Source: Pseudomonadota bacterium (GTDB lineage Bacteria > Desulfobacterota > Syntrophia > Syntrophales > UBA8958). Taken from it: a DNA stretch of 54,797 nucleotides. The notes below the pieces were generated by a model. That model was not told the origin of the DNA. It ran no database searches and saw only the letters and a program-made list of their open reading frames with translations. This document shows, in pieces, positions 8,694 to 31,066 of this stretch (the stretch's first letter is position 1; every line of letters starts with the position of its first letter). A program made the translations under genes and the position numbers. The DNA lies in contig JASGUC010000030.1 of the NCBI GenBank assembly GCA_030057915.1, positions 1 through 54,797 of the forward strand, written 5' to 3'.

Positions 8694-10544
8694 TTATCCG
8701 CCGCCGTCCTTGATATGTCGGGTCAACTCCGCGGTGAGTTCGTAATAGGAGAACGGCGTCATCAGATAAAATCCCCGAAAGTGTTCCCGGGCCGCATCCA
8801 CAAGCTCCCGCGCCAGGTCCAGGCCCTCCCGGCGGGCATCGGGACCCGGGACGGGGTACTTGGCCATGCGTAGCAACGCCGCGTCGGTGAGACGGATCCC
8901 CGGGACCTCGTTGTGCAGGAACTGGGCGTTGCGGGCGCTGGTAAGGGGCATGATGCCGATGAAGATTGGCACGGGCAGATGCCGGGTCCGCTCGGCGATC
9001 ATCTCGATGGCTTCCCGGTCATATACGGGCTGGGTCAGGATGAAATCCGCCCCCGCCTCGATCTTTTTCTCCAGCCGTTTGAAGGCCCCGGCGAGATTGA
9101 CCACATGGGGGTTGAAGGCGGCCCCGACGACAAAGCGCCCCCGTTCCCGGAGCGGCTGACCGGAGAAGGAAATGCCGGCGTTGAGCTGCTTTACCATGCG
9201 GATAAGGTCGAAGGAGGAGACGTCGAAGACGGAGCTGGCGCCGGGAAGGTCTCCATATCGTGCGGGATCGCCGGTGATGACGAGGATTTGGCGGATGCCC
9301 AGGGCATGCAGACCCATGAGATGCGACTGCTGGCCGATGAGGTTGCGGTCCCGGCAGGCGATATGCACCAAGGGGTCGATCCCCAGGCGCATCTTCACTA
9401 TGGCCCCCAGGGCCAGATTGCTCATCCGCGTCTGGGCCAGGGAGTTGTCGGCCATGGTGATGGCGTCCGCCCCCGCATCCTGCAGCGAGGCCGCCCCGAT
9501 CATGTAACGCTCGATGTCCAAGTCCCTGGGGGGGTCGAATTCCACGAGCACCGTGGGCCGTTCCTTTACCTTGCCCGTTATGGATCCCGTCTCGAGGCTC
9601 GAGACGAGGGAGATCTGGGGCATCGGTTCCGGGGCCGACGGCGCCTCCGGGTTGGTGCGGGGCAAGGGCGTCAGATCCTTCAGGGCCGCGGACACCGCCC
9701 GGATGTGATCCGGGGTGGTACCGCAGCAGCCGCCGATTATCAGGACCCCCTGGGCGTGGAAGCTCCGGGCCTGGTCGCCGAAGTAAGCGGGAGAGGAAGT
9801 GTAGCCAAATTCCCCTTCCATGATGCCGAGACGGCCGGCGTTGGGAAACACGGAGAGGGACATGTCCGGGGGGACAACCGTCTCCTCCAGGGTCCGCAGC
9901 AGCTCGGCGGGCCCCAGTCGACAGTTTAGCCCGACGATGTCGGCCCCGGCATCGGCCAGGAGGCGGAACGCCTCCGTGATGGAACGGCCGTCCCGGGTCT
10001 TTCCCACCTCCATGCAGGCCAATTGGGCGATGATCGGCAAAGCGGTGCGGGGACGAAGGGTCTCCAAGGCCAGGAGCAGTTCCTCGAGGTCGAGGAAGGT
10101 CTCCAGGATAAGGCCGTCCACGCCGCCGGCGAGCAGCGCCTCCGCCTGCTCGACGAAGATCTCCCGGTGTCCCGGCAGGACCTCGTGACGGATGCGCCGG
10201 GCGTTCAGGGCGGTCATGCTGCCCATGACCCAGGCATCCGGGCCGACCCCTTCCCGGGCCAGGAGGGCCGCTTTCCAATTGATGCGATAGACGCTGTCGG
10301 CCATCTCGAAGCGCGCCAGGGCATCGCGGTTGGCGCCGAAGGTGTTGGTCTCGATCAAGCGGGCGCCCGCTTCGTAGTATTGCCGGTGGGTGTCCCTGAT
10401 CAGCTCCGGCCGCGAGAGGTTCAACTCCTCGCAACACCAGCCGATGGGGACCCCTTGTTGGTGGAGCCAGGTGGCCATCGCCCCGTCGCCCACCACCATA
10501 TGTCCCTGGAGATGTTCCCGGAGGGCGCTGTTGTTCGACATCAT
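8694..10544 (-). CDS. Bifunctional homocysteine S-methyltransferase / methylenetetrahydrofolate reductase
   Basis: Fusion of 616 residues. The N-terminal half (about 1-290) is a homocysteine methyltransferase barrel: DGAMATWL, ETNTFGANRDAL, GLNC and the zinc-binding GGCCGTTPDH. The C-terminal half (about 320-616) is a MetF-type flavoprotein: EFDPPRD with the catalytic glutamate, DNSLAQTRMSN, HIACRDRN, ITGDPARYGD and ILTQPVYD. Such YitJ-like fusions pass the methyl group of methyl-tetrahydrofolate toward homocysteine; the methyl donor for the N-terminal domain is not fixed by sequence. With metK and ahcY in the same window it fits methionine recycling. The next upstream gene on this strand is a second MTHFR-type protein. 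Confidence 0.93.
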   Translation of the reverse strand: MMSNNSALREHLQGHMVVGDGAMATWLHQQGVPIGWCCEELNLSRPELIRDTHRQYYEAGARLIETNTFGANRDALARFEMADSVYRINWKAALLAREGVGPDAWVMGSMTALNARRIRHEVLPGHREIFVEQAEALLAGGVDGLILETFLDLEELLLALETLRPRTALPIIAQLACMEVGKTRDGRSITEAFRLLADAGADIVGLNCRLGPAELLRTLEETVVPPDMSLSVFPNAGRLGIMEGEFGYTSSPAYFGDQARSFHAQGVLIIGGCCGTTPDHIRAVSAALKDLTPLPRTNPEAPSAPEPMPQISLVSSLETGSITGKVKERPTVLVEFDPPRDLDIERYMIGAASLQDAGADAITMADNSLAQTRMSNLALGAIVKMRLGIDPLVHIACRDRNLIGQQSHLMGLHALGIRQILVITGDPARYGDLPGASSVFDVSSFDLIRMVKQLNAGISFSGQPLRERGRFVVGAAFNPHVVNLAGAFKRLEKKIEAGADFILTQPVYDREAIEMIAERTRHLPVPIFIGIMPLTSARNAQFLHNEVPGIRLTDAALLRMAKYPVPGPDARREGLDLARELVDAAREHFRGFYLMTPFSYYELTAELTRHIKDGGG

Positions 10545-11126: not shown

Positions 11127-12704
11127 TTACGGGCCCGTCGCGCCAGCGCCGGGAGATTTACCCCCCTGTCCTTTGGCGGCGTGGTCCTTTCCGAGATAGT
11201 AATTGATCCAGGATGAGGTTTGATAGAGGTCCCAGTTGCAGGGGGGGACGATGCCCTCGGCCAGTTGCCCCTCCCGGCCGCGCCGCCGCAGGCGGTGGTA
11301 GGCCCGGACGTAAACGCACTCTCTCTTTCCTTGATAAACCTCGCACCAGCCTTGGTAAGAGCCGCCGCAGGCCCCGTTGCGTTGGTTTTTCGGGCATTGC
11401 GACATGGGGCATAAGTAGGCCGTCTCGGCGAGGGCGCAATCCCCGCAGTCCCGACAGTCGAAGAGGACGACCTTGACCAGATGTTCCAGCCGGTGGAAAA
11501 CCCTCTCCAGACCGGTTCCCGCTATCCTGCCGCAGAGCGTCTTCATGGCCCCGTGGAGATTCTTTCCCGGCTCGTACAGCAGCCAATGCATGAAAAGGGC
11601 AAGGCGATAGGCGCAATCGCCACCGGACTCGCCGCTCCGGCGGCGTCTTTCGGCCGGCTTCTCCCGGTTGAGGCCCGTTTCCGGATCGCGCTCATAGTAA
11701 TAAAAGCCGTCGGGCAGCGGATAATCGAAGTGTCTAACCAGGTCGGTCCATTGGGGGACAAGGGCTTCTCCCTGCCGGATGACCTCCACGACCTGCTCGT
11801 AGGCGACGTTGTGCCCGCCGATGTGGACCCCGTTGTAACCCATGCCCTTGAGGATGGCGTACATGCGGGCGGCGCGCAAGAGCCTCGCCCGCAGCCCCTT
11901 GTCCGGATCGCTCCGCTCCCGGTCTATGTCCGCAAGGAGCTTGTCCGTCACAACGGAGCCGGGCAGTTCGTTGCGGTTCATCATCCGGGCGGCCCCGTAG
12001 GGCAGGATGTAGATGTTGCCCACGAGGGGAATATCGGAGTGGTTCTGTTTCATGTACAGCAACGCTTCGTGAAACTTTCTCGCGTCGTATCCCAGTTGGG
12101 TAACGATGAATTGCGCCCCCGCGGCGATCTTCTTCTTCAGTTTGTAATATTGGGCCATCTGCTCCGCCTCCGTGGCCTTGAAAGGGGAAACGACGGCGCC
12201 GGCGAAGAAATCGCAGGGGTGGCTCAGGATGATCCCCTTGGTTTGCGGATGCTCCGGACCCCGGTTCAGCTCCGTTATCAACTGCAGCACATGCGCCGGG
12301 TCCAGATCGAAGACCGGCGCCGGCCTTCCCTGATGTCCCGATACCGGATAATCGCCGCTCATTGCCAGGAGATTGCGGACCCCTGCCCGAGCCAGGGCGT
12401 AGAGTTGACTTTCGATGGCATTGCGGTTCTTGTCTTTGCAGGTGAAGTGGACGACCGGTTCGATGCCCAGGGCGAGGATCTCGGCGCCCATGAAATCCGC
12501 GGACATGGCCGGGGTTCCGCCGGGGTTGTCGGTCAGGGTCAGGGCATGGATCATCCCCCCGGAGGCCGCCTGGCCGGCAAGACGGACGACCCTTTCCTGG
12601 GCTGCCTCCCGGGCGCCCCGGCCCGGAACCACTTCCCAGGACACCGGGAAGACGGCGGGGTTCGATAAGGCCTCTCTGAAGCGATTAGGGGACATCGCGG
12701 ACAT
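11127..12704 (-). CDS. Methylenetetrahydrofolate reductase with Cys-rich C-terminal (MetV-like) domain
   Basis: Protein of 525 residues. The N-terminal MetF-like domain (about 15-310) has SWEVVPGRG with the catalytic glutamate, HFTCKDKNRNAIESQLYAL, LAMSGDYP and FIVTQLGYDARKF. The C-terminal part (about 390-500) is rich in cysteine (CRDCGDC, CPMSQCPKNQRNGACGG, then single C residues) and resembles the MTHFR C-terminal/MetV domain that binds Fe-S or zinc in acetogen-type reductases. It likely serves the methyl branch of the Wood-Ljungdahl pathway or reversible methyl-THF oxidation; electron donor unknown. ATG 12704 follows AAGGAAAG. The frame runs open far upstream antisense to the amidase gene, which is not meaningful. 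Confidence 0.9.
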   Translation of the reverse strand: MSAMSPNRFREALSNPAVFPVSWEVVPGRGAREAAQERVVRLAGQAASGGMIHALTLTDNPGGTPAMSADFMGAEILALGIEPVVHFTCKDKNRNAIESQLYALARAGVRNLLAMSGDYPVSGHQGRPAPVFDLDPAHVLQLITELNRGPEHPQTKGIILSHPCDFFAGAVVSPFKATEAEQMAQYYKLKKKIAAGAQFIVTQLGYDARKFHEALLYMKQNHSDIPLVGNIYILPYGAARMMNRNELPGSVVTDKLLADIDRERSDPDKGLRARLLRAARMYAILKGMGYNGVHIGGHNVAYEQVVEVIRQGEALVPQWTDLVRHFDYPLPDGFYYYERDPETGLNREKPAERRRRSGESGGDCAYRLALFMHWLLYEPGKNLHGAMKTLCGRIAGTGLERVFHRLEHLVKVVLFDCRDCGDCALAETAYLCPMSQCPKNQRNGACGGSYQGWCEVYQGKRECVYVRAYHRLRRRGREGQLAEGIVPPCNWDLYQTSSWINYYLGKDHAAKGQGGKSPGAGATGP

Positions 12705-12720
12705 GTTCTTTCCTTGTTTT

Positions 12721-12850
12721 AGACCTTTGCAATTCCATGCTTTTCTGACGCCGCGGCAAAGGTCGGGCGCCAGAACGTCTCGGAAACGCGGCATTCCCTC
12801 TTCTGCCGGCCTGACGAGAGGGCGTCGGAAACGGCGTTTTTCGAAGGTCG
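12721..12850. repeat. GAGACCTTTG-family interspersed repeat, degenerate
   Basis: Runs from AGACCTTTGCAATTCC to CGTTTTTCGAAGGTC between the divergently oriented MTHFR gene and amidase gene. The remaining 12851-13004 must hold the amidase promoter; none is obvious. Confidence 0.45.
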
Positions 12851-13004
12851 TTGTTTGTGGTTGGGGCTTGAAATGGCATTTACCGGCGGGCTTGTCAACA
12901 ATATTTAGTGGGAAGGGGAAGGTTGCGCGCCTGCCGTCGTCGGCGTTGTCCGGGGTCGCCAACCTTTCCTTGCAGTGGCCGAGGAAATTTGTTAGGTCCT
13001 CAAT

Positions 13005-15221
13005 ATGTTGACGGTAAAGGGAAATCCATGGCCCAGGACGATGTTCCTGCTGGCGATGCTGGTCATGATCGCCTGGTCCTCGCCAGGCGGCGCCGAGACG
13101 AATGTTCTGAATATCAGACATTGGGCGGCGCCGGATCATACCCGCGTCGTCATCGATACGAGCGAGGAGGCCCAGTATCGGATCGTCAAGCAGGACATGC
13201 GCCTCGGCGTCGAGATCGACGACGCCCGCTACGTCGAGACCAGGCAGCGCGCCATTGTCATCAGGAAACCCGGCCTCGATAAGATCGCCGTCTCCGCGCC
13301 GGCTGAAAACCGGGTGCTGGTTGACCTCTATCTTGCCGCCCATACCGAAACCAAGGTTTTCCGGGTGAAAAGATTCGAGGACAAACCGGACCGCATCGTG
13401 ATCGACATCATCCTGCCGGAGGTCGAAAAGAAGGAACGGGCAGACCGGGAGCGGGTCAAGGAGCACGCCAAGGGCAGGGTCATCGTCATCGACCCCGGTC
13501 ACGGCGGGGAGGATCCGGGGGCGATCGGCCGCCGCGGCCTCCAGGAAAAAAAGGTCGTCCTGGAAATCGCTAAAAAGGTGCGCGCCAAACTCAACGCCCG
13601 GAAAGGATACCATGCCTTTCTTACCCGGGAGGGGGATTATTATGTCTCTTTCAAAAAGCGCCTGAAGATCGCCAGGGAGTATGGCGCCGATCTCTTTCTG
13701 AGCATCCATGCCGACGCCGCCCGGAGTCGTCGGGCCTGCGGCAGTTCCGCGTATGTCCTGTCCCTGCGCGGGGCCAGCAATGAAGCGGCGAGAATCCTGG
13801 CCAGAAACGAAAACCTCGCCGATATCGTCGGCGGCGCCGGAAACGGAGAAGGGACCAGCGAGGAATCGGATCCCATCATCCTGAACATGTTTCAGACCCA
13901 GACCATGAACTATTCCAAAAACCTGGGCAATATCCTCCTCAAGAACATGGCGGCGGTTAACCGGCTGAAGTTTCCCGTCGTTCAAGAGGCACCGTTCATG
14001 GTCCTCAAGCTTCCGGAGGTGCCTTCCATACTTGTCGAGACGGCCTACATCACCAATCCGGCGGAGGAAAAGAAATTGCGGAGCCGGAAGTTCCAGAATG
14101 AGATCGCCACGGCGATCGCCGAATCCGCCGTCGAGTATCTCTCGTCGTCGCCGCGGACCCCGCCGGTGGTCCTGGCCAGACAGGATTCGGCCCCCGTCGC
14201 CGCCCCGCAAAGGCCTTCCGAGACGGAAGGGCGGCCCGACAAGGCGCCGCCGCCGACACAAACCGAGGCGCCCCCCGGGGAAGCGGCGCCGCCGGCACAA
14301 ACCGAGGCTCCCCCCGGGGAAGCGGCGCCGCCGCAGTCGGAGGCAGCCGGGCGGGAAACGGCGTCCGGGCCGCGGGAAACGGCGGCCAAGACCATCCCCC
14401 CGTCTCCCGGAAAGGAACCGCCGCCGACGCCAAGGGACGGGAAGAAGGCCGACAAGAAGAGCGCCCCCGTCTTCCATATGGTGAAAAGAGGCGAAAGCGT
14501 GGACCGGATCGCCAGGAGATACCGCGTCTCCCCGCTGCTGATCCTCAAGGCCAACAACATGAAGCCCCGGGACCCCCTCTATACGAACCGGAAGATCATC
14601 ATTCCCACGTCGGACGACGACGGGGAGGACGATCTCGTCCATTACGCTGTGGTCAAGGGGGACAGCCTCGAACGCATCGCCGCCCGGCACGGGACCACAT
14701 GCGCCGCATTGATGAAGATCAACGGGATGAAGGCCGCGGATGTCCTTTATGCGGGTAAAAGGATCAAGGTCCCGGCGCCGGCCGCGCAACTGGACGGGAA
14801 GAAACGGAAGGGACCGGAGCGAGCCACCCCCGAGCGGGAACGGGCATCCCCCGCCAGGGTGAAGTACCGGGTCAAAAAGGGAGACAGCCTGGAGACGATC
14901 GCCGCCCGGCACGGGACGACCCTGGCCTCCCTGTTGCGATTGAATGACATGAAGGCCCGGGACACCCTCCATGCCGGCCGGGTGATTATCCTCCGGGAGG
15001 CGGAGACGGACGTTGCGGGAGAGGCAAAAAAGGTCGGGAAGCGACCGGAAAGGGCGAAGAAGACCGTCGTCTATATCGTGAAGAAAGGGGACTCTCTCGA
15101 AACCATCGCCCGCAGGCACCGGACCACCGTGGGCGTCTTGAGGGACCTGAATGCGGACCGGCGTCTCACGCCGCTATATGTAAATCAGCGTCTGAAGATA
15201 CCCCTGACTTCAAGGATGTGA
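13005..15221 (+). CDS. N-acetylmuramoyl-L-alanine amidase with AMIN and four LysM domains
   Basis: Secreted cell-wall hydrolase of 738 residues. An N-terminal signal segment (about 12-31) is followed by an AMIN domain (35-140) for envelope targeting, and an Amidase_3 catalytic domain (about 157-375) with DPGHGGEDPGA, SIHADAA and the glutamate in SILVETAYITNPAE. A Pro/Ala-rich spacer with QTEAPPGEAAPP repeats (about 390-480) leads to four LysM domains starting near 488, 544, 619 and 687, each with a GDS/GES-type start. It cleaves the amide between MurNAc and the peptide stem, typically for daughter-cell separation. AmiC-type enzymes with four C-terminal LysM units are larger than usual. Start 13005 follows TTAGG; ATG 13041 would also keep the signal. 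Confidence 0.92.
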   Translation: MLTVKGNPWPRTMFLLAMLVMIAWSSPGGAETNVLNIRHWAAPDHTRVVIDTSEEAQYRIVKQDMRLGVEIDDARYVETRQRAIVIRKPGLDKIAVSAPAENRVLVDLYLAAHTETKVFRVKRFEDKPDRIVIDIILPEVEKKERADRERVKEHAKGRVIVIDPGHGGEDPGAIGRRGLQEKKVVLEIAKKVRAKLNARKGYHAFLTREGDYYVSFKKRLKIAREYGADLFLSIHADAARSRRACGSSAYVLSLRGASNEAARILARNENLADIVGGAGNGEGTSEESDPIILNMFQTQTMNYSKNLGNILLKNMAAVNRLKFPVVQEAPFMVLKLPEVPSILVETAYITNPAEEKKLRSRKFQNEIATAIAESAVEYLSSSPRTPPVVLARQDSAPVAAPQRPSETEGRPDKAPPPTQTEAPPGEAAPPAQTEAPPGEAAPPQSEAAGRETASGPRETAAKTIPPSPGKEPPPTPRDGKKADKKSAPVFHMVKRGESVDRIARRYRVSPLLILKANNMKPRDPLYTNRKIIIPTSDDDGEDDLVHYAVVKGDSLERIAARHGTTCAALMKINGMKAADVLYAGKRIKVPAPAAQLDGKKRKGPERATPERERASPARVKYRVKKGDSLETIAARHGTTLASLLRLNDMKARDTLHAGRVIILREAETDVAGEAKKVGKRPERAKKTVVYIVKKGDSLETIARRHRTTVGVLRDLNADRRLTPLYVNQRLKIPLTSRM

Positions 15222-24204: not shown

Positions 24205-27200
24205 TCATATCTCCGCGTCGCAGCGGAGGCACCGGCATGCCTCCTTCATGGCCTCCTCCGGCGTAAAGCCCAGCTCTACCTCCAGGAAACTCAGCTTCCT
24301 GACAGCGGCGGGCAGCTCCGGCATGGGGGCCTGGGGCTGTTCCAACGATTCCTCGTCGATGATGAGGGGGATGTCGATGGCCTCCTCCGCCGGCGCCTCA
24401 TAGGCCTCCTCGCCATTGGCGGCGCGGATGGCGGCGTCTATATCCCGGGCGGCTTGATGGCCCGCCTCGATGGCCCCGATGACCGTATCGGGACCGGTTA
24501 CGGCGTCGCCGCCGGCATAGAATTGGGCGTTGGTCGTCCGGGACTTGCTTCCCTCCGCCAGATCGAAGGTGTCCCAGCGATTGACGGAGATGCCGCTGTC
24601 CTTGGAAACGAAGGAAAGATCCGGGACCTGGCCGATGGCGGCGATAATGGCGTCCACGCTCAGGGTGAAGGCGGTCTCGGGGATGGCCACGGGTTTCCGG
24701 CGGCCGCTGCGGTCGAATTCCCCGAGGGTCATCCGCTCGCAGGTGATGCCGCTCAGCTTGCCGTCCCTGGCCTCGAGCCGCAGGGGGGCGACGAGATATT
24801 CGATCTTGATCCCCTCGTGTTCCGCGGCGACGATCTCTTCCACCGCCGCGGGCATATCCTTACGTTCCCGGCGATAGAGGATCGTCACGTCGGCGCCCAG
24901 ACGGAGGGCGACGCGGGCGGCGTCGATGGCCGAGTTACCGCCGCCGATGACGGCGACCCGGTCGCCCAGGGTCTTCTCACCCTTCACCCAGGCCTCCTCA
25001 TGAGCGTTGAAGTCCCTGAGGAACTCCACCCCGCCGTAAACGCCCGGCATGTCCTCGCCGGCCAGACCGAGCTTCTGGCTCCGATGCGCCCCGGGGGCCA
25101 TGTAGATGTAGTCGAAGTCATTCTTCAGTTGCTCCAGGGGGATGTCCCGACCCACCCGGGTGTTGCACTTGATCTCCACGCCCAGGGCGGTGATGTAGGA
25201 AATCTCCCTGGCCAGGATGTTCCGGGGCAGGCGGTAGGAGGGGATGGCCCAGCGGAGCATCCCGCCCGGCTCGGGGAGTTCTTCGAAGACCGTAACGGCA
25301 TAGCCACGCATGGCCAGATCCCGGGCGGCGGTGAGGCCCGCCGGCCCGGCGCCCACCACGGCGATCTTTTCCTTCCGCGTCGTCGGGACCGCCGCGACCC
25401 GAGGCCGATCGGCATTGTCGGTGATGAAGCGCTTCAGGAACTTGATGGCGATGGGCTCGTCCATCTTGCCCCGTCGGCATTTGTCCTGACACTTGTGGTC
25501 GCAGACCCGGCCGCAGACCGAGGGGAAGGGGTTGGTCCGGAGCATGACCTTGTAGGCATCCTCCAGGCGGTTCGCCCGGATCAGGGCGATATAGGCCGGG
25601 ATGTCCATCCCCACGGGGCAGGTGTTCTGACAGGGGGACTTGAAGAGGGCGCCGCAGACCGAGGCGGGGCATTTCTTATCCCGGATGTGGGCCTCGTATT
25701 CGTCCCGGAAATAACGGATCGTGCTGAGGACCGGGTTGGGGGCCGTCTGCCCCAGGCCGCAGAGGGAGGCGTCCTTGATGATCGCCGCCAACTCCTCCAG
25801 AAGCTCGATGTCGCCTTCCTTGCCCTTGCCCAGGGTGATGTTGGTGAGGATCTCCAGCGTTCGTTTCGTCCCTTCCCGGCAGGGGGTGCATTTCCCGCAG
25901 GATTCGTCCTGACAGAAATCCATGAAGAACCGGGCCATATCCACGGCGCAGGAATCTTCATTCATGACGATGAGGCCGCCGGAGCCCATGATGGCCCCCA
26001 GCTCCGCTACCTTTTCATAATCCACCGGGGCGTTCAGATGCTGGATGGGGATGCAGCCTCCCGAGGGGCCTCCCAGTTGGGCGGCCTTGAACTTCTTTCC
26101 CTTGGGTATGCCGCCGCCGATGTCATAGACGATGGTCCCCAGGGTGGTCCCCATGGGCACCTCCACCAGGCCCACGTTGTTCACGTCACCGGTGAGGGCG
26201 AAGACCTTGGTGCCCTTGCTCTTCTCCGAGCCGATGCTGGCGTGCCAGGCCGCCCCTTTGAGGATTATCTGGGCGATGTTGGCCAACGTCTCTACATTGT
26301 TGAGCACCGATGGCTTCTGCCATAGGCCCGCGATGGCGGGGAAGGGCGGCCGGGGACGAGGCATGCCCCGCTTGCCTTCTATGGAGGTCATCAGCGCCGT
26401 TTCCTCGCCGCAGACGAAGGCGCCGGCGCCCTGGTAGATCTCCAGATCGAAGTCGAAGCCCGTGCCCAAGATGTCCCTCCCCAGCAGGCCCATTTCCTTG
26501 GCCTGGGCGATGGCGATGTTCAGGCGCTGGATGGCCAGGGGGTACTCGGCCCGGCAATAGATGTAGCCGTGATGGGCGCCGATGGCCTTGGCGGCGATGA
26601 CCATGCCTTCCAGGACCGCGTGGGGGTCCGCCTCCAGGACGCTGCGGTCCATGAACGCGCCGGGGTCGCCCTCGTCGGCGTTGCAGAGGACGTATTTGAC
26701 CTCGCCTGGGGAGAGGGCGGCGAATTTCCATTTCAGGCCCGTGGGGAACCCGGCCCCGCCGCGGCCGCGCAGGCCGGAATCGAGGACTTCCTTGACGATA
26801 CCCTCGGGGGTCATCTCCGTCAGGGCCTTGGCCATCCCCTGATAACCGTCCCGGGCTATGTATTCATCGATCCGCTCCGGATCGATGAGCCCCCGGTTGC
26901 GGAGGACCCGCAGCTCCTGAAGGGCGAAGAAGGGGATTTCCTGCATGGTGGGGATGACCGCTTCCGTGGAAGGTTCCTTGTAGAGGAGCCGTTCGAGGAC
27001 CCTTCCTTTCACCAGGTGCTCTTCCACCAGCTCCGGGACGTCTTCCGGCTTGATGGTCATATAGATGACCCCTTCGGGATAGACGACCATGATGGGGCCC
27101 ATGGCGCAGAAACCGTTGCATCCGGTTTCGACGAGTTTGATTTCCTCGGTCAGGTTCTTCTTGGCCAGCTCCGCCAGCAGAGCCTTCTTGACGCTGATGC

Positions 27201-27261
27201 TTCCGGAAGCGTGACAGCCCGTGCCGCCGCAGAGCAGCAAATGCGATCGAAATACCTTCAT
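24205..27261 (-). CDS. NuoF-type NADH dehydrogenase subunit fused to a GltD-type FAD/NADPH oxidoreductase
   Basis: A 1018-residue fusion. Residues 1-95 form a thioredoxin-like [2Fe-2S] ferredoxin domain (Cys 11, 16, 48, 52). Residues 110-515 form a NuoF/HydB core: GLRGRGGAGFPTGLKWKF (FMN), CNADEGDPGAF (NADH), GAGAFVCGEETAL, and a [4Fe-4S] site at ESCGKCTPCREGT plus C501. Residues 530-1018 form a GltD/NfnB-like module: Cys-rich segment (531-596), FAD site VVGAGPAGLTAARDLA (635-650), a second dinucleotide site VIGGGNSAIDAARVAL followed by YRRER, which points to NADPH, and GGDAVTGPDTVIGAIEAGH. It should move electrons between NADH, flavins, Fe-S centres and NADPH in the cytosol. No large catalytic subunit follows it. 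Confidence 0.9.
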   Translation of the reverse strand: MKVFRSHLLLCGGTGCHASGSISVKKALLAELAKKNLTEEIKLVETGCNGFCAMGPIMVVYPEGVIYMTIKPEDVPELVEEHLVKGRVLERLLYKEPSTEAVIPTMQEIPFFALQELRVLRNRGLIDPERIDEYIARDGYQGMAKALTEMTPEGIVKEVLDSGLRGRGGAGFPTGLKWKFAALSPGEVKYVLCNADEGDPGAFMDRSVLEADPHAVLEGMVIAAKAIGAHHGYIYCRAEYPLAIQRLNIAIAQAKEMGLLGRDILGTGFDFDLEIYQGAGAFVCGEETALMTSIEGKRGMPRPRPPFPAIAGLWQKPSVLNNVETLANIAQIILKGAAWHASIGSEKSKGTKVFALTGDVNNVGLVEVPMGTTLGTIVYDIGGGIPKGKKFKAAQLGGPSGGCIPIQHLNAPVDYEKVAELGAIMGSGGLIVMNEDSCAVDMARFFMDFCQDESCGKCTPCREGTKRTLEILTNITLGKGKEGDIELLEELAAIIKDASLCGLGQTAPNPVLSTIRYFRDEYEAHIRDKKCPASVCGALFKSPCQNTCPVGMDIPAYIALIRANRLEDAYKVMLRTNPFPSVCGRVCDHKCQDKCRRGKMDEPIAIKFLKRFITDNADRPRVAAVPTTRKEKIAVVGAGPAGLTAARDLAMRGYAVTVFEELPEPGGMLRWAIPSYRLPRNILAREISYITALGVEIKCNTRVGRDIPLEQLKNDFDYIYMAPGAHRSQKLGLAGEDMPGVYGGVEFLRDFNAHEEAWVKGEKTLGDRVAVIGGGNSAIDAARVALRLGADVTILYRRERKDMPAAVEEIVAAEHEGIKIEYLVAPLRLEARDGKLSGITCERMTLGEFDRSGRRKPVAIPETAFTLSVDAIIAAIGQVPDLSFVSKDSGISVNRWDTFDLAEGSKSRTTNAQFYAGGDAVTGPDTVIGAIEAGHQAARDIDAAIRAANGEEAYEAPAEEAIDIPLIIDEESLEQPQAPMPELPAAVRKLSFLEVELGFTPEEAMKEACRCLRCDAEI

Positions 27262-27279: not shown

Positions 27280-27663
27280 CTATCTTTGAGTTTCCGCACC
27301 CCTGGCCAGTACGAAGGGGACCTGAATCTCTCCCTCCAGGATATGCCGTTTGAATACCTGGCGCATCTTGTTGGGATTCATGTACTCGTATTTAATCGGT
27401 TCCTGGTTGACGACCTCCACGGTGACCAGCGGCTCCCGGCTGCACAACCCCATGCAGCCCGAGGTGGTGACGGCCACATCCGTGACGCCCGCTTCCTCGA
27501 TTTCCCGCAGCAGGGCGTCCATGACCTCCTTGGCCCCGGAAGCGATGCCGCAAGTGCCCATATGGACGGTGACCTTGACCCGGAGGCGACCGTCCCGCAG
27601 GGCGGTCTCGGCATGGACCCGCTCCTTTATCTTCTTCAAATCTTCAATCGTGATCTTTGCCAT
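27280..27663 (-). CDS. Thioredoxin-like ferredoxin-domain protein of NADH oxidoreductase operon
   Basis: Protein of 127 residues with the (2Fe-2S) ferredoxin-like fold found beside NuoE/NuoF in hydrogenase and NADH oxidoreductase operons. HMGTCGIASGAKEVMDALLREIEE and TTSGCMGLCSREPLVTVEV are the key segments. I see only three cysteines in these positions (one, then CxxxC), whereas a [2Fe-2S] centre needs four ligands; several members of this small family look the same. It probably docks to the NuoEF-like subunits as a structural or electron-transfer piece. It lies 18 bp before the NuoF fusion and 19 bp after NuoE. Confidence 0.88.
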   Translation of the reverse strand: MAKITIEDLKKIKERVHAETALRDGRLRVKVTVHMGTCGIASGAKEVMDALLREIEEAGVTDVAVTTSGCMGLCSREPLVTVEVVNQEPIKYEYMNPNKMRQVFKRHILEGEIQVPFVLARGAETQR

Positions 27664-27682: not shown

Positions 27683-28177
27683 TCAATCGTAAGAGTTAAG
27701 AATTTCCTTGACTTTTCCCGGCTTTACCCGTCCGTGGACGTCGGCGCCCACTACGATGACCGGTCCGAGGCCGCAGGCGCCCAGGCAGCGAACCGATTCA
27801 TAGGTGAATCTACGGTCGGGCGTTGTTTCTCCCTCCTTGACGCCGAAATTTTTCTCGATGCTTTCCGCCAGGGCCTTTCCGCCGCGGACATAACAGGCCG
27901 TCCCCAGACAGACCCGGACCGTATGTCTTCCCCGGGGGGTCATGGTGAAGAACGAGTAAAAGGTGACGACGCCGTAAACGCGGCTCAGGGGAAGATTCAA
28001 TCCCCGGGCGATCGCCTTCTGAACGGAGAGGGGGATGTACTCCAGGGTCATCTGGGCCTCCTCGAGAACGGGGATGAGCCCTCCCGGCTTGCCCCTGTAT
28101 CGGGCGATGATCTCGTAAAGCTTGCCCACCTGTTCCTCGGTGAATTCCTTCAGCAGTTCCTCTTTTTCACGCTTCAT
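27683..28177 (-). CDS. nuoE: NuoE-like [2Fe-2S] subunit of NAD(P)-dependent oxidoreductase
   Basis: Protein of 164 residues, normal NuoE/HydC length. The helical N-terminal half (LIPVLEEAQMTLEYIPLSVQKAIARGLNLP, VYGVVTFYSFF) is followed by the thioredoxin fold with ligands in VCLGTACYVRGG and VRCLGACGLGPVI (Cx4C...Cx3C). It carries the N1a-type cluster and pairs with the NuoF-like fusion. A strong AGGAGGAAG precedes the start. Whether it serves a bifurcating hydrogenase, a formate dehydrogenase or an NADH:NADPH enzyme is open. Confidence 0.93.
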   Translation of the reverse strand: MKREKEELLKEFTEEQVGKLYEIIARYRGKPGGLIPVLEEAQMTLEYIPLSVQKAIARGLNLPLSRVYGVVTFYSFFTMTPRGRHTVRVCLGTACYVRGGKALAESIEKNFGVKEGETTPDRRFTYESVRCLGACGLGPVIVVGADVHGRVKPGKVKEILNSYD

Positions 28178-28208: not shown

Positions 28209-28757
28209 TCACGCTTCGGATGCTATGTCATGCAGTCCATCTTTCACGCTCTGTCTTATATATTTCAGCACCTCGATATGATTGATGGGAACGTCCCCCA
28301 GCTCCCTTTTCAGCTCCTCGGTTTTCAGCTCGAAAACCCGATCCCCGCGGCGGTGACGATAGGTGAACGCGATGTCGGGATTGCCGGCGATCAGGGTGGC
28401 GATGACGCCGGGAAGGTCTCCCAGCGGCTGCCGGTCCAGATGGGTCAACCCAAAGGAGACCTTCAATTGGGTGCCCCGGCCCGGTTCCGAGACCAGCGTC
28501 AGGCGGCCCCCCGTTCTCTCCGCCGCCTGGGCCAGCATGGGGAGCCCCAGGCCTACCCGGCGGACCTTCTTCGTGGTGTAAAAGGGGTCCAGGGCCTTGC
28601 TCATGGTCTCCGGGTCCATCCCGACTCCGTCGTCGCTGATCTCCAGGGTGAGTAGATCCGCTTCACGGTCCTCCTCCATTCCCATCTCGATGCGTCGGGC
28701 CCCCGCCCGTGTTGAATTCTCCGCGATATCGAGAATATGCAGCGCCAGCTCCCTCAT
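28209..28757 (-). CDS. GHKL-type ATP-binding protein (histidine-kinase-like ATPase)
   Basis: Protein of 182 residues made almost wholly of a HATPase_c domain: N-box LHILDIAENSTRAGA, ISDDGVGMD, DPFYTTKK, VGLGLPMLAQAAERTGG and PGRGTQLKV. No phosphoacceptor histidine domain or membrane segment is seen. Such stand-alone ATPases accompany DRTGG and PHP proteins in FeFe-hydrogenase and NADH-oxidoreductase operons; I recall this association from clostridial and Thermotoga clusters. It likely regulates the operon or complex. One base separates it from the PHP stop. Confidence 0.88.
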   Translation of the reverse strand: MRELALHILDIAENSTRAGARRIEMGMEEDREADLLTLEISDDGVGMDPETMSKALDPFYTTKKVRRVGLGLPMLAQAAERTGGRLTLVSEPGRGTQLKVSFGLTHLDRQPLGDLPGVIATLIAGNPDIAFTYRHRRGDRVFELKTEELKRELGDVPINHIEVLKYIRQSVKDGLHDIASEA

Positions 28758-28758
28758 G

Positions 28759-29496
28759 TCAGCCCACTATCCTCCGCCCTTTCGCGCCGGCCAGTGCCAG
28801 GCGGATCTCCCGGAAACTGGCCTCGGCCAGCATCATCTCCGTCCAGCCCCGGCCGATGTCGCCGATGAAGTGGGCGTCGGAGGAGGAGACAAAGGGGTAA
28901 CGGGCCAGCTCGGGGTGGCATAGCCTTGCCCTTTCCAGGCACATCCGTGGGGTGAACTCCAGGGCGTCGAAGGCGAAGGAGGGGTCTATGAAGCCCAACT
29001 GTCCCAGGACGCTGAAACTCTCTCGATCCACATGGGAAGCGATAGCGATGCCGCCCTCTCCGTGGATGCCGGCGATGACCTCCTGCAACGGCAGGGAGGT
29101 GGCGCCGATGAGCAGCCGGCTGTTGAATCCCTCCACTTCATCGTTCTCGTTGACGATGACCTGGCAGCCGAAGACCTCCTCATCGTTCTCGCCCTCCAGG
29201 TGGGCGTAAACCAGTTCCTGAAAATTCCGCAAACCGTCGATATTTTCAAAGAGCGCCAGGGTGTGCACTTCCTCCCGGCTGGACACCTCCATCCCTGGCA
29301 ATACCGCAAGGGGCAAGCCCGAGGCGGCCCGCTGGACATAACCGACGTTCTCCGAGGCGTTGTGGTCGCAGATGCCGATGATGTCCAGCTTTTTCTCCAG
29401 CGCCCGGCGCACTATGGCCCGGGGGTGCATGTCCAGCTCAGCGCATGGCGAAAGGCAGGTGTGGATGTGAAGGTCGCAGCGCATCGCCTTCAACAT
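28759..29496 (-). CDS. PHP-domain phosphoesterase
   Basis: Protein of about 245 residues with metal motifs of the PHP family: DLHIHTCLSPCAELD (HxH), GICDHNASEN (DH), LPGMEVSSREEVHTLALF (E and H), IASHVDRES and SSSDAHF (DxH). It probably hydrolyses a phosphoester, possibly a nucleotide, and is a regular companion of DRTGG and ATPase genes next to NuoEF-type operons. The frame opens at 29529, but that ATG sits within a perfect palindrome followed by eight T on the coding strand. I prefer ATG 29496, twelve residues later; ATG 29484 is also possible. Confidence 0.85.
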   Translation of the reverse strand: MLKAMRCDLHIHTCLSPCAELDMHPRAIVRRALEKKLDIIGICDHNASENVGYVQRAASGLPLAVLPGMEVSSREEVHTLALFENIDGLRNFQELVYAHLEGENDEEVFGCQVIVNENDEVEGFNSRLLIGATSLPLQEVIAGIHGEGGIAIASHVDRESFSVLGQLGFIDPSFAFDALEFTPRMCLERARLCHPELARYPFVSSSDAHFIGDIGRGWTEMMLAEASFREIRLALAGAKGRRIVG

Positions 29497-29514
29497 GGGC
29501 TGATCCCGGGGATA

Positions 29515-29542
29515 TAAAAAAAAGACCATGACGTCATGGTCT
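29515..29542 (-). terminator. Hairpin with T-run between DRTGG and PHP genes
   Basis: The palindrome AGACCATGACGTCATGGTCT (29523-29542) is perfect over 20 bp, and the minus strand continues directly into T8. It has the form of an intrinsic terminator or attenuator, placed inside the operon after the DRTGG stop codon. It could lower expression of PHP, ATPase and NuoEF relative to the genes before it, or serve as an operator. Confidence 0.6.
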
Positions 29543-29904
29543 CAAATGTCCGCTTCCTCCGGCGACTTCGTCGCGGCGATCATGTTGAATACCCTGCCGA
29601 TGGTCTCGAAACCGGGCCGGGCCGAAGCCAGGATGGGTATCCCCTCCTTGCGGGCCTTCTCCAGGGTGTCGGCGGCCGGTTCGGCCCCCTGGATGACAAC
29701 GATGCCCGCATGGTCCTTCAGGCTGGCCACGGCCACGATGTTCTGGTGGATCTGCCTGGTGAACCAGAGATCTCCTTCCTTGCTGTTGGCCATGACGTCG
29801 CTCAAGAGGTCGCCGACGTAGCCGCCGGAAACCTCGGCGTCCAGCCGGTCCTGGCCCGACAGGACCTTCAAGTCGAGTTCTTTGACGATCGTGTCTAAGT
29901 TCAT
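29542..29904 (-). CDS. DRTGG-domain protein (second of two)
   Basis: Protein of 120 residues with the DRTGG fold: MNLDTIVKELDLKVLSGQDRLDAEVSGGYVGDLLSDVMANSKEGDLWFT and GIVVIQGAEPAADTLEKARKEGIPILAS. DRTGG domains also occur in phosphotransacetylases and CBS proteins, where they are thought to bind ligands. Its role beside NuoEF genes is not established to my knowledge. It is a paralogue of the gene at 30361-30735 with an ATPase between them. ATG 29904 is chosen by alignment with that paralogue; the frame runs further upstream without similarity. Confidence 0.85.
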   Translation of the reverse strand: MNLDTIVKELDLKVLSGQDRLDAEVSGGYVGDLLSDVMANSKEGDLWFTRQIHQNIVAVASLKDHAGIVVIQGAEPAADTLEKARKEGIPILASARPGFETIGRVFNMIAATKSPEEADI

Positions 29905-29918
29905 GGTCGAGAGAATGC

Positions 29919-30374
29919 TTAAATGCCGTCGAAGTCCTTGTCGATGCGAATGACCATTTTCAGATGGGTGCCCTTGCCGATTTCCGAGGAGATCCGGAAA
30001 AAATCGGAGAAGTTCTTGATGTTGCACAACCCCATGCCGGCGCCGAAGCCCATCTCCCGAATCCGCTCCGTGGCGGTGGAATAGCCGGCCTGCATGGCCA
30101 GCTCGATGTCCGCGATCCCCTGGCCCTCGTCGATGGCCTCGACGGTTACGTGTTCCGGCGTCACCCGGAGATGGATCCGACCCCGGTTGGCGTAGGAACA
30201 GATGTTGATCTCCGCTTCGTAAGTGACCAAGGCCGCTCTGCGCACAACCTTCTTGGAGAGCTTCATCCTTGTGAGCAGGGCCTTGATCTGACTGGAAACA
30301 TGCCCGGCGTTGTCAAAGGTTCCCCCCTCTACGGGAAAGGAGTTTTCATAGATGGCCGCATCATGAGAAAGCAC
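29919..30374 (-). CDS. RsbT/anti-sigma-type ATP-binding protein
   Basis: Protein of about 151 residues with a HATPase_c fold of the anti-sigma-factor kinase type: VVRRAALVTYEAEINICSYANRGRIHLRV (N-box region), VEAIDEGQGIADIELAMQAGYSTATERIREMGFGAGMGLCNIKNFSD and GKGTHLKMVIRI. RsbT/RsbW-like proteins phosphorylate antagonists or bind partners; here the partner may be the DRTGG proteins, since all three are adjacent. I start at GTG 30374, which overlaps the upstream DRTGG gene by 14 bp; no in-frame ATG lies near enough to be better. Confidence 0.83.
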   Translation of the reverse strand: MLSHDAAIYENSFPVEGGTFDNAGHVSSQIKALLTRMKLSKKVVRRAALVTYEAEINICSYANRGRIHLRVTPEHVTVEAIDEGQGIADIELAMQAGYSTATERIREMGFGAGMGLCNIKNFSDFFRISSEIGKGTHLKMVIRIDKDFDGI

Positions 30375-30735
30375 GTTCGTCGTCAACCCTTTCCACACAG
30401 CCAACGATCCCTTTTGTGTATAATTTCCCGGCGGTTTCGAAGAGGATGTATTGTGTGACCAGGATGGGGATATGCAACTCCTCCGCAAGACGGATCGTTT
30501 CCGGGGAAGGGCGTTTGCCGCGCACCATGATGATGGCGGCGATATCGAGCACGTCGGATGTCCGGATGACCTGGGGATTGGTGAGCCCGGTAAGCAGCAG
30601 ACTTCCCGCTTTGGCAAAGGCCAGGACGTCGCTCATGAGATCGGCCCCGAAAGCGGTTTTCACCTCTTTGCCCAATTGATCATGGCCGACGAGGACTTCA
30701 GCATCCAGAATATCTTTCACTTCTCGAAGCGTCAC
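30361..30735 (-). CDS. DRTGG-domain protein (first of two)
   Basis: Protein of 124 residues of the same family as the gene at 29542: TLREVKDILDAEVLVGHDQLGKEVKTAFGADLMSDVLAFA, IIMVRGKRPSPETIRLAEELHIPILVTQYILFETAGKLY. GTG 30735 is preceded by AAAGGAG with 8-bp spacing, which decides the start over the ATG at 30777. It is the first gene of the leftward operon, so the operon promoter should lie in about 30736-30850; I see no clear -35/-10 pair there. Confidence 0.85.
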   Translation of the reverse strand: MTLREVKDILDAEVLVGHDQLGKEVKTAFGADLMSDVLAFAKAGSLLLTGLTNPQVIRTSDVLDIAAIIMVRGKRPSPETIRLAEELHIPILVTQYILFETAGKLYTKGIVGCVERVDDERAFS

Positions 30736-31066
30736 CTTGGTCTCCTTTACTGAAGAATAGAATAAAAAAGGGCTCATATTTTAGCTGATCGCCATGCCCG
30801 AGGGGCTTACCATAAGGACGGGGGTATGTCAATACAATTGTCCCGGGGTCGGCGACGGACAGATATATATTTTTCCCGGGGTCGGCGGATAAAAAATGCC
30901 TTCCTTCCCGGGCCGTTCATGATAGAAGCTAACGTTGAATCTCCCGTGCGCATGACCGCGGGCGCGGGCATTCATGCCGCGTCCGGAGAGGACGACGTCG
31001 GGAAGGATCCGGGACGAAAGGCGAGATTGGCCCCGGGGACGAAGCGGCATCCTGCCTTCCTGGAGC

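Follow-up and report, generated by a model that had tools for sequence, protein, structure and literature searches.

Why should a bacterium whose genome holds no [FeFe] hydrogenase keep, in front of an NADH oxidoreductase, a set of five small, tightly packed genes that usually travels with a hydrogenase of the sensory kind? The question is raised by positions 28209-30735 of contig JASGUC010000030.1, the whole 54,797 nt of which are hereafter called the window. All five genes lie on the minus strand and encode, in the order of reading, a DRTGG-domain protein (DRTGG1), a SpoIIAB/RsbW-like ATPase or kinase (ATP1), a second DRTGG paralogue (DRTGG2), a PHP phosphoesterase and a histidine-kinase-type ATPase domain (HATP). 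An earlier note on this DNA had called the same packed and partly overlapping genes at these coordinates, which our Pfam matches bear out, and had read them as a partner switch that controls redox enzymes in response to a nucleotide. Partner-switch-like control is our best reading as well, and the note's overall idea is partly supported: with a probability of roughly one half, we propose that the five genes form a two-part signalling module, partner-switch-like in its use of a kinase and a phosphatase, whose usual sensor is HydS, a "sensory" [FeFe] hydrogenase of group D (M2e), and which acts on NADH modules. The response to a nucleotide has shrunk to one option, toward which forms of ATP1 fused to CBS domains point, the forms with HydS pointing to H2 or redox state.

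The association on which this proposal builds is strongly non-random. A search with HATP covered 148 genomes of the window's phylum and found the full-length family (E < 1e-40), which is distinct from ordinary histidine kinases, in 32 of them, one copy being broken; a scan of 84,980 species with an ATP1 profile yielded at least 585 confirmed relatives, the best 80 of which were kept with their flanks. We annotated 117 loci, 111 of them ATP1 loci, using profiles built in this analysis. Because they were picked via the similarity of ATP1 or HATP to the window proteins, the frequencies given here describe the sample and not all bacteria, and it is the remaining set genes that constitute independent evidence. 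The loci span at least 19 phyla and follow the order DRTGG1-ATP1-(HydS)-DRTGG2-PHP-HATP-NuoE/Fd/NuoF (Fd, ferredoxin), with a variable position of NuoE. In the 68 loci with at least 8 kb of downstream and 4 kb of upstream sequence, two or more DRTGG genes were present in 63, PHP in 61, HATP in 57 and NuoE or NuoF in 60, as against 20 random 20-kb windows from the same genomes, none of which contained any set gene and two of which contained NuoE/Fd/NuoF. The neighbourhood analysis that the earlier note had proposed has hereby been run, and the note's statement that the set recurs near [FeFe]-hydrogenase and NuoEF operons of other anaerobes proved right, HydS accompanying the set in 73 of the 111 ATP1 loci, normally between ATP1 and DRTGG2. 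The two halves of the set are separable: DRTGG-ATP1-HydS occurs alone (for example in locus L129), in the complex I operons of L040, L043 and L044 DRTGG-HATP alone separates NuoD from NuoE or NuoF, and in L057 the whole set (DRTGG, CBS-ATP1, PHP, HATP) is interleaved with NuoB, NuoD, NuoE, NuoF, NuoG-like and NuoH genes. Formate dehydrogenase operons are also associated with it.

HydS as a core gene, which the earlier note had overlooked together with its loss here, its exchange for CBS domains and the link to formate dehydrogenase and complex I, ties the set to a known open problem. Among 71 aligned copies, the eight cysteines of two N-terminal [4Fe-4S] motifs are invariant (71/71), the H-cluster cysteines are kept in 71, 71, 70 and 71 copies (one copy being short of one), and C386, C389, C394 and C411 of a C-terminal Cx2Cx4Cx16C motif are likewise invariant; position 299 is Cys in a single copy and position M353 is Ser or Thr in 59. 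A Pfam scan of two copies (L033, L052) returned the FeS family PF04060 and no PAS domain, and the HydS model matches [FeFe] hydrogenases with Z scores of up to 31.4. The cysteines, the loss of C299, the Ser/Thr at M353 and the missing PAS domain thus assign HydS to group D (M2e), whose putative sensory members are described with these features (PMC8163306).

Earlier papers have already reported kinases beside group D HydS and listed the genes of one operon of this kind. A histidine-kinase-like ATPase is reported to flank group D HydS (PMC8163306), and M2e enzymes were classed as sensory on the grounds of protein kinases and bifurcating hydrogenases in their neighbourhood (PMC3561251), no mechanism being given in either case; the whole operon of Halanaerobium (Halsa_1862-1871) is listed, without comment, as an unidentified open reading frame, anti-sigma kinase, Fe-S protein, 'iron-sulfur binding hydrogenase', PHP, NuoE, histidine kinase, Fd, NADH dehydrogenase and hydrogenase (PMC4237134). 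The earlier note's statement that the job of the set is undescribed therefore holds only in part. When group D HydS loci (TamHydS, TTE0887, Cthe_0335, Halsa_1862-1871) are compared with the set, the Halanaerobium gene order matches, and, judging by position, its unidentified frame and 'iron-sulfur binding hydrogenase' would be the two DRTGG proteins; the window differs from these loci in that its genome has neither HydS nor hydrogenase and in that the downstream enzyme is NuoE-Fd-NuoF-GltD. How group D HydS relays its signal is openly unknown, and a recent study states that its interaction partners are unknown and that identifying them is critical (PMC13104023, 2026). The set genes are the best candidates for these missing signalling partners, and our analysis offers, for each DRTGG protein, one serine to mutate.

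In the window itself the set has outlived its hydrogen sensor. The genome to which the window belongs (rated 100% complete) contains no match to PF02906 (Fe_hyd_lg_C), i.e. no [FeFe] hydrogenase, and no HydF over the cut-off, which rules out that this organism senses H2 through an [FeFe] sensor. The loss is not confined to it, as an [FeFe] hydrogenase is missing altogether from 10 of the 32 genomes of the phylum that bear the set, even though set and [FeFe] hydrogenase do co-occur there (22/32 versus 18/116, p = 1.7e-8 with kinship ignored). On a tree of ATP1 (132 columns, with many forks unresolved), the type of input changed 4 times versus 34 in shuffles, and the window belongs to a group of 22 rows without HydS (support 93, not starred), nested among HydS carriers, a placement of sequences which suggests that HydS was lost in the window lineage. 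Persistence of the set without its hydrogen sensor points to the NADH module, and not the hydrogenase, as the thing controlled.

The sensor also appears to be exchangeable. ATP1 has a pair of CBS domains at its N-terminus in nine loci (four of which were scanned with Pfam, with E values around 1e-25 to 1e-30), and CBS-ATP1 and HydS never occur together (0/73 vs 9/38, Fisher p = 3e-5), an exclusion that amounts to one evolutionary event, the CBS forms being a single clade on the ATP1 tree. Natural fusions join DRTGG1 to ATP1 (seven loci), HydS to DRTGG2 (three loci: L050, L052, L061) and PHP to HATP (one locus), and they rank these pairs as likely contacts. Models of the DRTGG1-ATP1 fusion (predicted local distance difference test score, pLDDT, 92.5; predicted template-modelling score, pTM, 0.80) and of the HydS-DRTGG2 fusion (pLDDT 88.7, pTM 0.74) have scores compatible with a defined domain arrangement.

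The conserved residues of the set proteins suggest what passes between these partners. Both DRTGG proteins share the motif D-L-[ML]-S-D, of which Asp and Ser are each kept in 103/103 DRTGG1 sequences, and in 90/91 and 91/91 DRTGG2 sequences, where Thr49 is also invariant (91/91). Ordinary DRTGG domains have mostly Ala/Gly and Asp/Glu/Asn at those positions and no D-x-x-S (27 control rows; three of these were read on the wrong strand and one, L203, is itself a free-standing relative of the DRTGG proteins in the set, which does no more than blur the control column). AF1212, like the ordinary DRTGG proteins of the comparison, lacks D-x-x-S and keeps the GDRxD/TGG signature of PF07085, whereas in the set it is replaced by TGLTNPQ and TxQxHQN, and on this basis the set proteins would form a separate subfamily of PF07085. 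DRTGG2 scores just under the curated PF07085 cut-off, but the family profile made in this analysis places it in the family with confidence. The DRTGG fold is shared with AF1212 (2ioj), to which a DRTGG1 orthologue compares with a Z score of 17.4, and with the regulatory CBS-DRTGG region of a Clostridium perfringens pyrophosphatase (3l2b, 3l31; 15.0). In the DRTGG1-ATP1 fusion model, the serine of D-x-x-S occupies the first turn of the helix that follows a strand. The phosphoserine of SpoIIAA also lies in the first helix turn after a strand, and the modelled serine may, by analogy, parallel it.

As to the ATPases, the earlier note was right in recognizing two of the GHKL type, one of which combines the SpoIIAB fold with the catalytic Glu. 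ATP1 matches the SpoIIAB model at 2.5e-14 and SpoIIAB by profile at 1.2e-11, and the predicted fold of an orthologue (L094) superposes on SpoIIAB with a Z score of 18.5 and a root-mean-square deviation of 1.8 over 132 residues. The Glu and Asn of its N-box, aligned to the SEAxxN box of SpoIIAB, are invariant (111/111); in SpoIIAB this Glu is catalytic. HATP has an invariant D-x-x-x-N box and invariant D-x-G-x-G and G-x-G motifs (83 members); its ATPase domain begins at residue 8 and is followed by a conserved C-terminal extension of about 75 aa, with no dimerization helix pair (DHp) or phospho-His. The metal ligands of PHP (HxH, D, H, E, H, H, D, H) are invariant in 83/83 sequences and complete in the window protein (H9, H11, D43, H44, E69, H77, H154, D206, H208), and the window copies of all five proteins retain those catalytic and motif residues that are nearly invariant.

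We thus envisage the following scheme. Its observed basis is the content and order of the genes, their fusions, the catalytic residues that are kept and the place of the HydS-less lineage amid HydS carriers on the tree; that there is a kinase and a phosphatase at work, that the serine is phosphorylated, what the target is and that control is direct rather than transcriptional are what we infer. The sensor half, DRTGG1 and ATP1, would be driven by HydS or by CBS domains on the ATP1 protein; where both are missing, as in the window, the input would have to come from the DRTGG proteins or from the redox enzyme. ATP1, acting as a SpoIIAB-like kinase, would phosphorylate the D-x-x-S serine of a DRTGG protein and the PHP enzyme would take the phosphate off, such that DRTGG would assume the role of STAS, and PHP that of PP2C. 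In the effector half, comprising DRTGG2, PHP and HATP beside NuoE/2Fe-2S/NuoF, the state of phosphorylation would set the binding of DRTGG/HATP to the NuoE-NuoF module and thereby gate the flow of electrons between NADH and the enzyme concerned, be it a hydrogenase, a formate dehydrogenase, complex I or, here, the NuoEF-GltD oxidoreductase. If true, what is gated would be the NADH entry module that bifurcating hydrogenases, formate dehydrogenases and complex I have in common, which would bear on our understanding of NADH balance and H2 yield in fermenters, syntrophs and sulfate reducers.

Known switches offer partial precedents. The SpoIIAB-SpoIIAA-SpoIIE and RsbW-RsbV systems resemble the set in the SpoIIAB fold and N-box Glu of ATP1, in a small partner whose invariant Ser sits where a strand turns into a helix and in the presence of a phosphatase-type gene, but the set operon has DRTGG and PHP in place of STAS, sigma factor and PP2C (PP2C is found near the set in only 3/111 loci), and it encodes a second ATPase, of the histidine-kinase type. 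SiaABCD of Pseudomonas aeruginosa shows that a partner switch whose target is not a STAS protein can control an enzyme directly through the phosphorylated partner (PMC7647112; PMC8457831). Its kinase SiaB compares with the ATP1 model at a Z score of 11.9, and it shares with our proposal a phospho-target that is not a classical anti-anti-sigma factor and direct enzyme control; it differs in that SiaA is a PP2C phosphatase, the target a diguanylate cyclase and SiaC not a DRTGG protein. The group C3 HydS called BfuT, near BfuABC (PMC11406978), is likewise a sensory hydrogenase beside an electron-bifurcating enzyme, but belongs to group C and has PAS or histidine-kinase domains. One locus of our sample (L075, 4969-7865) has a PAS-containing, group C-like sensory hydrogenase and a SpoIIE-type PP2C directly upstream of a HydS-less set.

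Several observations weigh against the scheme proposed above. The activity of every set member is predicted only, no input protein is evident in the window lineage, and the CBS-HydS exclusion counts as a single event. NuoEF is absent from the vicinity of 8/68 set loci, among them that of Parabacteroides, where an [FeFe]-hydrogenase-like protein lies between ATP1 and DRTGG2. The invariant Ser and Asp could instead serve ligand binding, the nearest kinds of PHP act on nucleotides or RNA and not on phosphoproteins, and association gives no direction, which means that the set could act on transcription. This last point leads to a real, if unlikely, alternative, in which the set tunes expression of its own operon to HydS or redox state, with ATP1 as an anti-sigma factor or with HATP feeding a response regulator. 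It would fit the fact that SpoIIAB and RsbW, both anti-sigma factors, are the nearest solved relatives of ATP1, that Rex adjoins the set in four loci, and that sensory hydrogenases are assumed to act on expression (PMC10055695; PMC8163306). However, neither sigma factor nor response regulator was seen among the recurrent neighbours whose sequences were read, and no STAS protein among the five window proteins or the recurrent neighbour clusters, where a partner encoded elsewhere is possible; in addition, sets sit inside enzyme operons, including among complex I genes, and the responses of Cthe_0335 (HydS) and Cthe_0340-0342 to ethanol shock differ (PMC3478167). To an equally low probability we assign a role without protein phosphorylation, in which DRTGG binds a nucleotide (NADH or a dinucleoside polyphosphate) that PHP makes or destroys, and the ATPases read DRTGG. 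The position of DRTGG beside CBS domains in the nucleotide-regulated pyrophosphatase, the CBS-ATP1 fusions, the hydrolysis of nucleotides or RNA by PHP relatives and the placement of D-x-x-S at the opening of a helix after a strand, a common site of phosphate binding, all speak for it, but ATP1 would have no use for the N-box Glu of SpoIIAB-type protein kinases if it did no more than read DRTGG, and PHP is missing from several HydS-containing sets.

A function in assembly or maturation, with the GHKL ATPases and their partners as chaperones that insert clusters or build NuoE-Fd-NuoF, would account for the finding that NuoE/Fd/NuoF is what the hydrogenase, formate dehydrogenase and complex I operons have in common. 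We nevertheless regard it as improbable, and as less likely than either of the two alternatives above, given that the genome has three NuoF genes (two further ones elsewhere, C32 and C2) to one set, that Hyd1ABC of S. wolfei is active when made in E. coli with only maturases co-expressed (PMC5626996), and that the usual neighbour is HydS, which is no assembly factor. A part in H-cluster maturation is ruled out by the retention of the set in a genome without HydF and [FeFe] hydrogenase. Mere chance or hitch-hiking proximity, which the loci devoid of NuoEF might suggest, has practically no chance of being correct, contradicted as it already is by the control windows, the breadth of phyla and the natural fusions. 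Returning to the partner-switch-like module, it may even represent a new class, with serine-phosphorylated DRTGG partners, a PHP phosphatase, direct gating of NuoE-Fd-NuoF and HydS, CBS or nothing as input, a possibility that we put forward only tentatively and hold to be doubtful as a whole. In the open-licence literature, where absence is weak evidence, we found no description of the D-x-x-S DRTGG subfamily, the HydS/CBS exchange, the link to complex I and formate dehydrogenase or the hydrogenase-free persistence of the set; DRTGG and hydrogenase were found together only in an unrelated Desulfovibrio fitness paper.

Coordinates of the set genes, the genes that follow them and an intervening hairpin in the window
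Feature	Position	Strand	Description
DRTGG1	30361..30735	(-)	about 124 aa; DRTGG fold with D-x-x-S (D32, S35, domain numbering); PF07085 2.2e-11
ATP1	29919..30374 (GTG) or 30386 (TTG)	(-)	SpoIIAB/RsbW-like ATPase or kinase; PF13581 (HATPase_c_2) 1.4e-8
DRTGG2	29542..29904	(-)	120 aa; second DRTGG paralogue; PF07085 4.3e-5
Hairpin	29522..29543	(-)	terminator-like, 9-bp stem and T run between DRTGG2 and PHP; possible attenuator
PHP phosphoesterase	28759..29496	(-)	245 aa; PF02811 5.5e-8, PF13263 2e-6
HATP	28209..28757	(-)	182 aa; histidine-kinase-type ATPase domain; PF02518 4.3e-15
NuoE-like	27683..28177	(-)	[2Fe-2S] thioredoxin-fold subunit (probable target module); PF01257 1.9e-49
Small [2Fe-2S] protein	27280..27663	(-)	ferredoxin-like; NF041612 1.4e-8; recurs between set and NuoF
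NuoF-GltD	24205..27261	(-)	1018 aa; NuoF fused to GltD/NfnB-like FAD/NAD(P) module; Complex1_51K 5.7e-47, Pyr_redox_2 1.9e-28

In the window, DRTGG1 starts with GTG behind the ribosome site AAAGGAGA, with an ATG further upstream at 30777; the ATP1 gene overlaps the end of DRTGG1, and HATP begins 1 base past PHP. NuoE, the 2Fe-2S protein and NuoF follow downstream in the same direction, and to the NADH oxidoreductase of the earlier note we add the small correction that NuoF is fused to a GltD/NfnB-like module. This NuoF-GltD gene has no adjoining hydrogenase or formate dehydrogenase gene and is followed by a squalene-hopene cyclase. The folding of the hairpin is not exceptional (z -1.57, not significant), no Rex operator was found upstream of the set in the window with up to 3 mismatches allowed, and a scan for sigma-70 promoters gave no more matches than chance. 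A role in anti-phage defence was considered and rejected, PADLOC returning no convincing match and only a weak one to PHP (2e-4).

Among the matches listed, the nearest relatives of the window ATP1 (75% and 69%) belong to L072 (6010-6964) and L073, which hold DRTGG1-ATP1 only, i.e. orphan sensor halves, followed by unrelated genes. In a locus from Chloroflexi (L125, 6242-11811), DRTGG and CBS-ATP1, again the sensor half, precede an apparent [NiFe] hydrogenase operon. Elsewhere in the window, a 1330-aa open frame (11127-15119, minus strand) has methylene-tetrahydrofolate reductase and DUF5981 parts toward its C-terminal end, preceded by about 800 aa with no strong Pfam match, and at 8694-10544 on the same strand a homocysteine S-methyltransferase is fused to a second methylene-tetrahydrofolate reductase.

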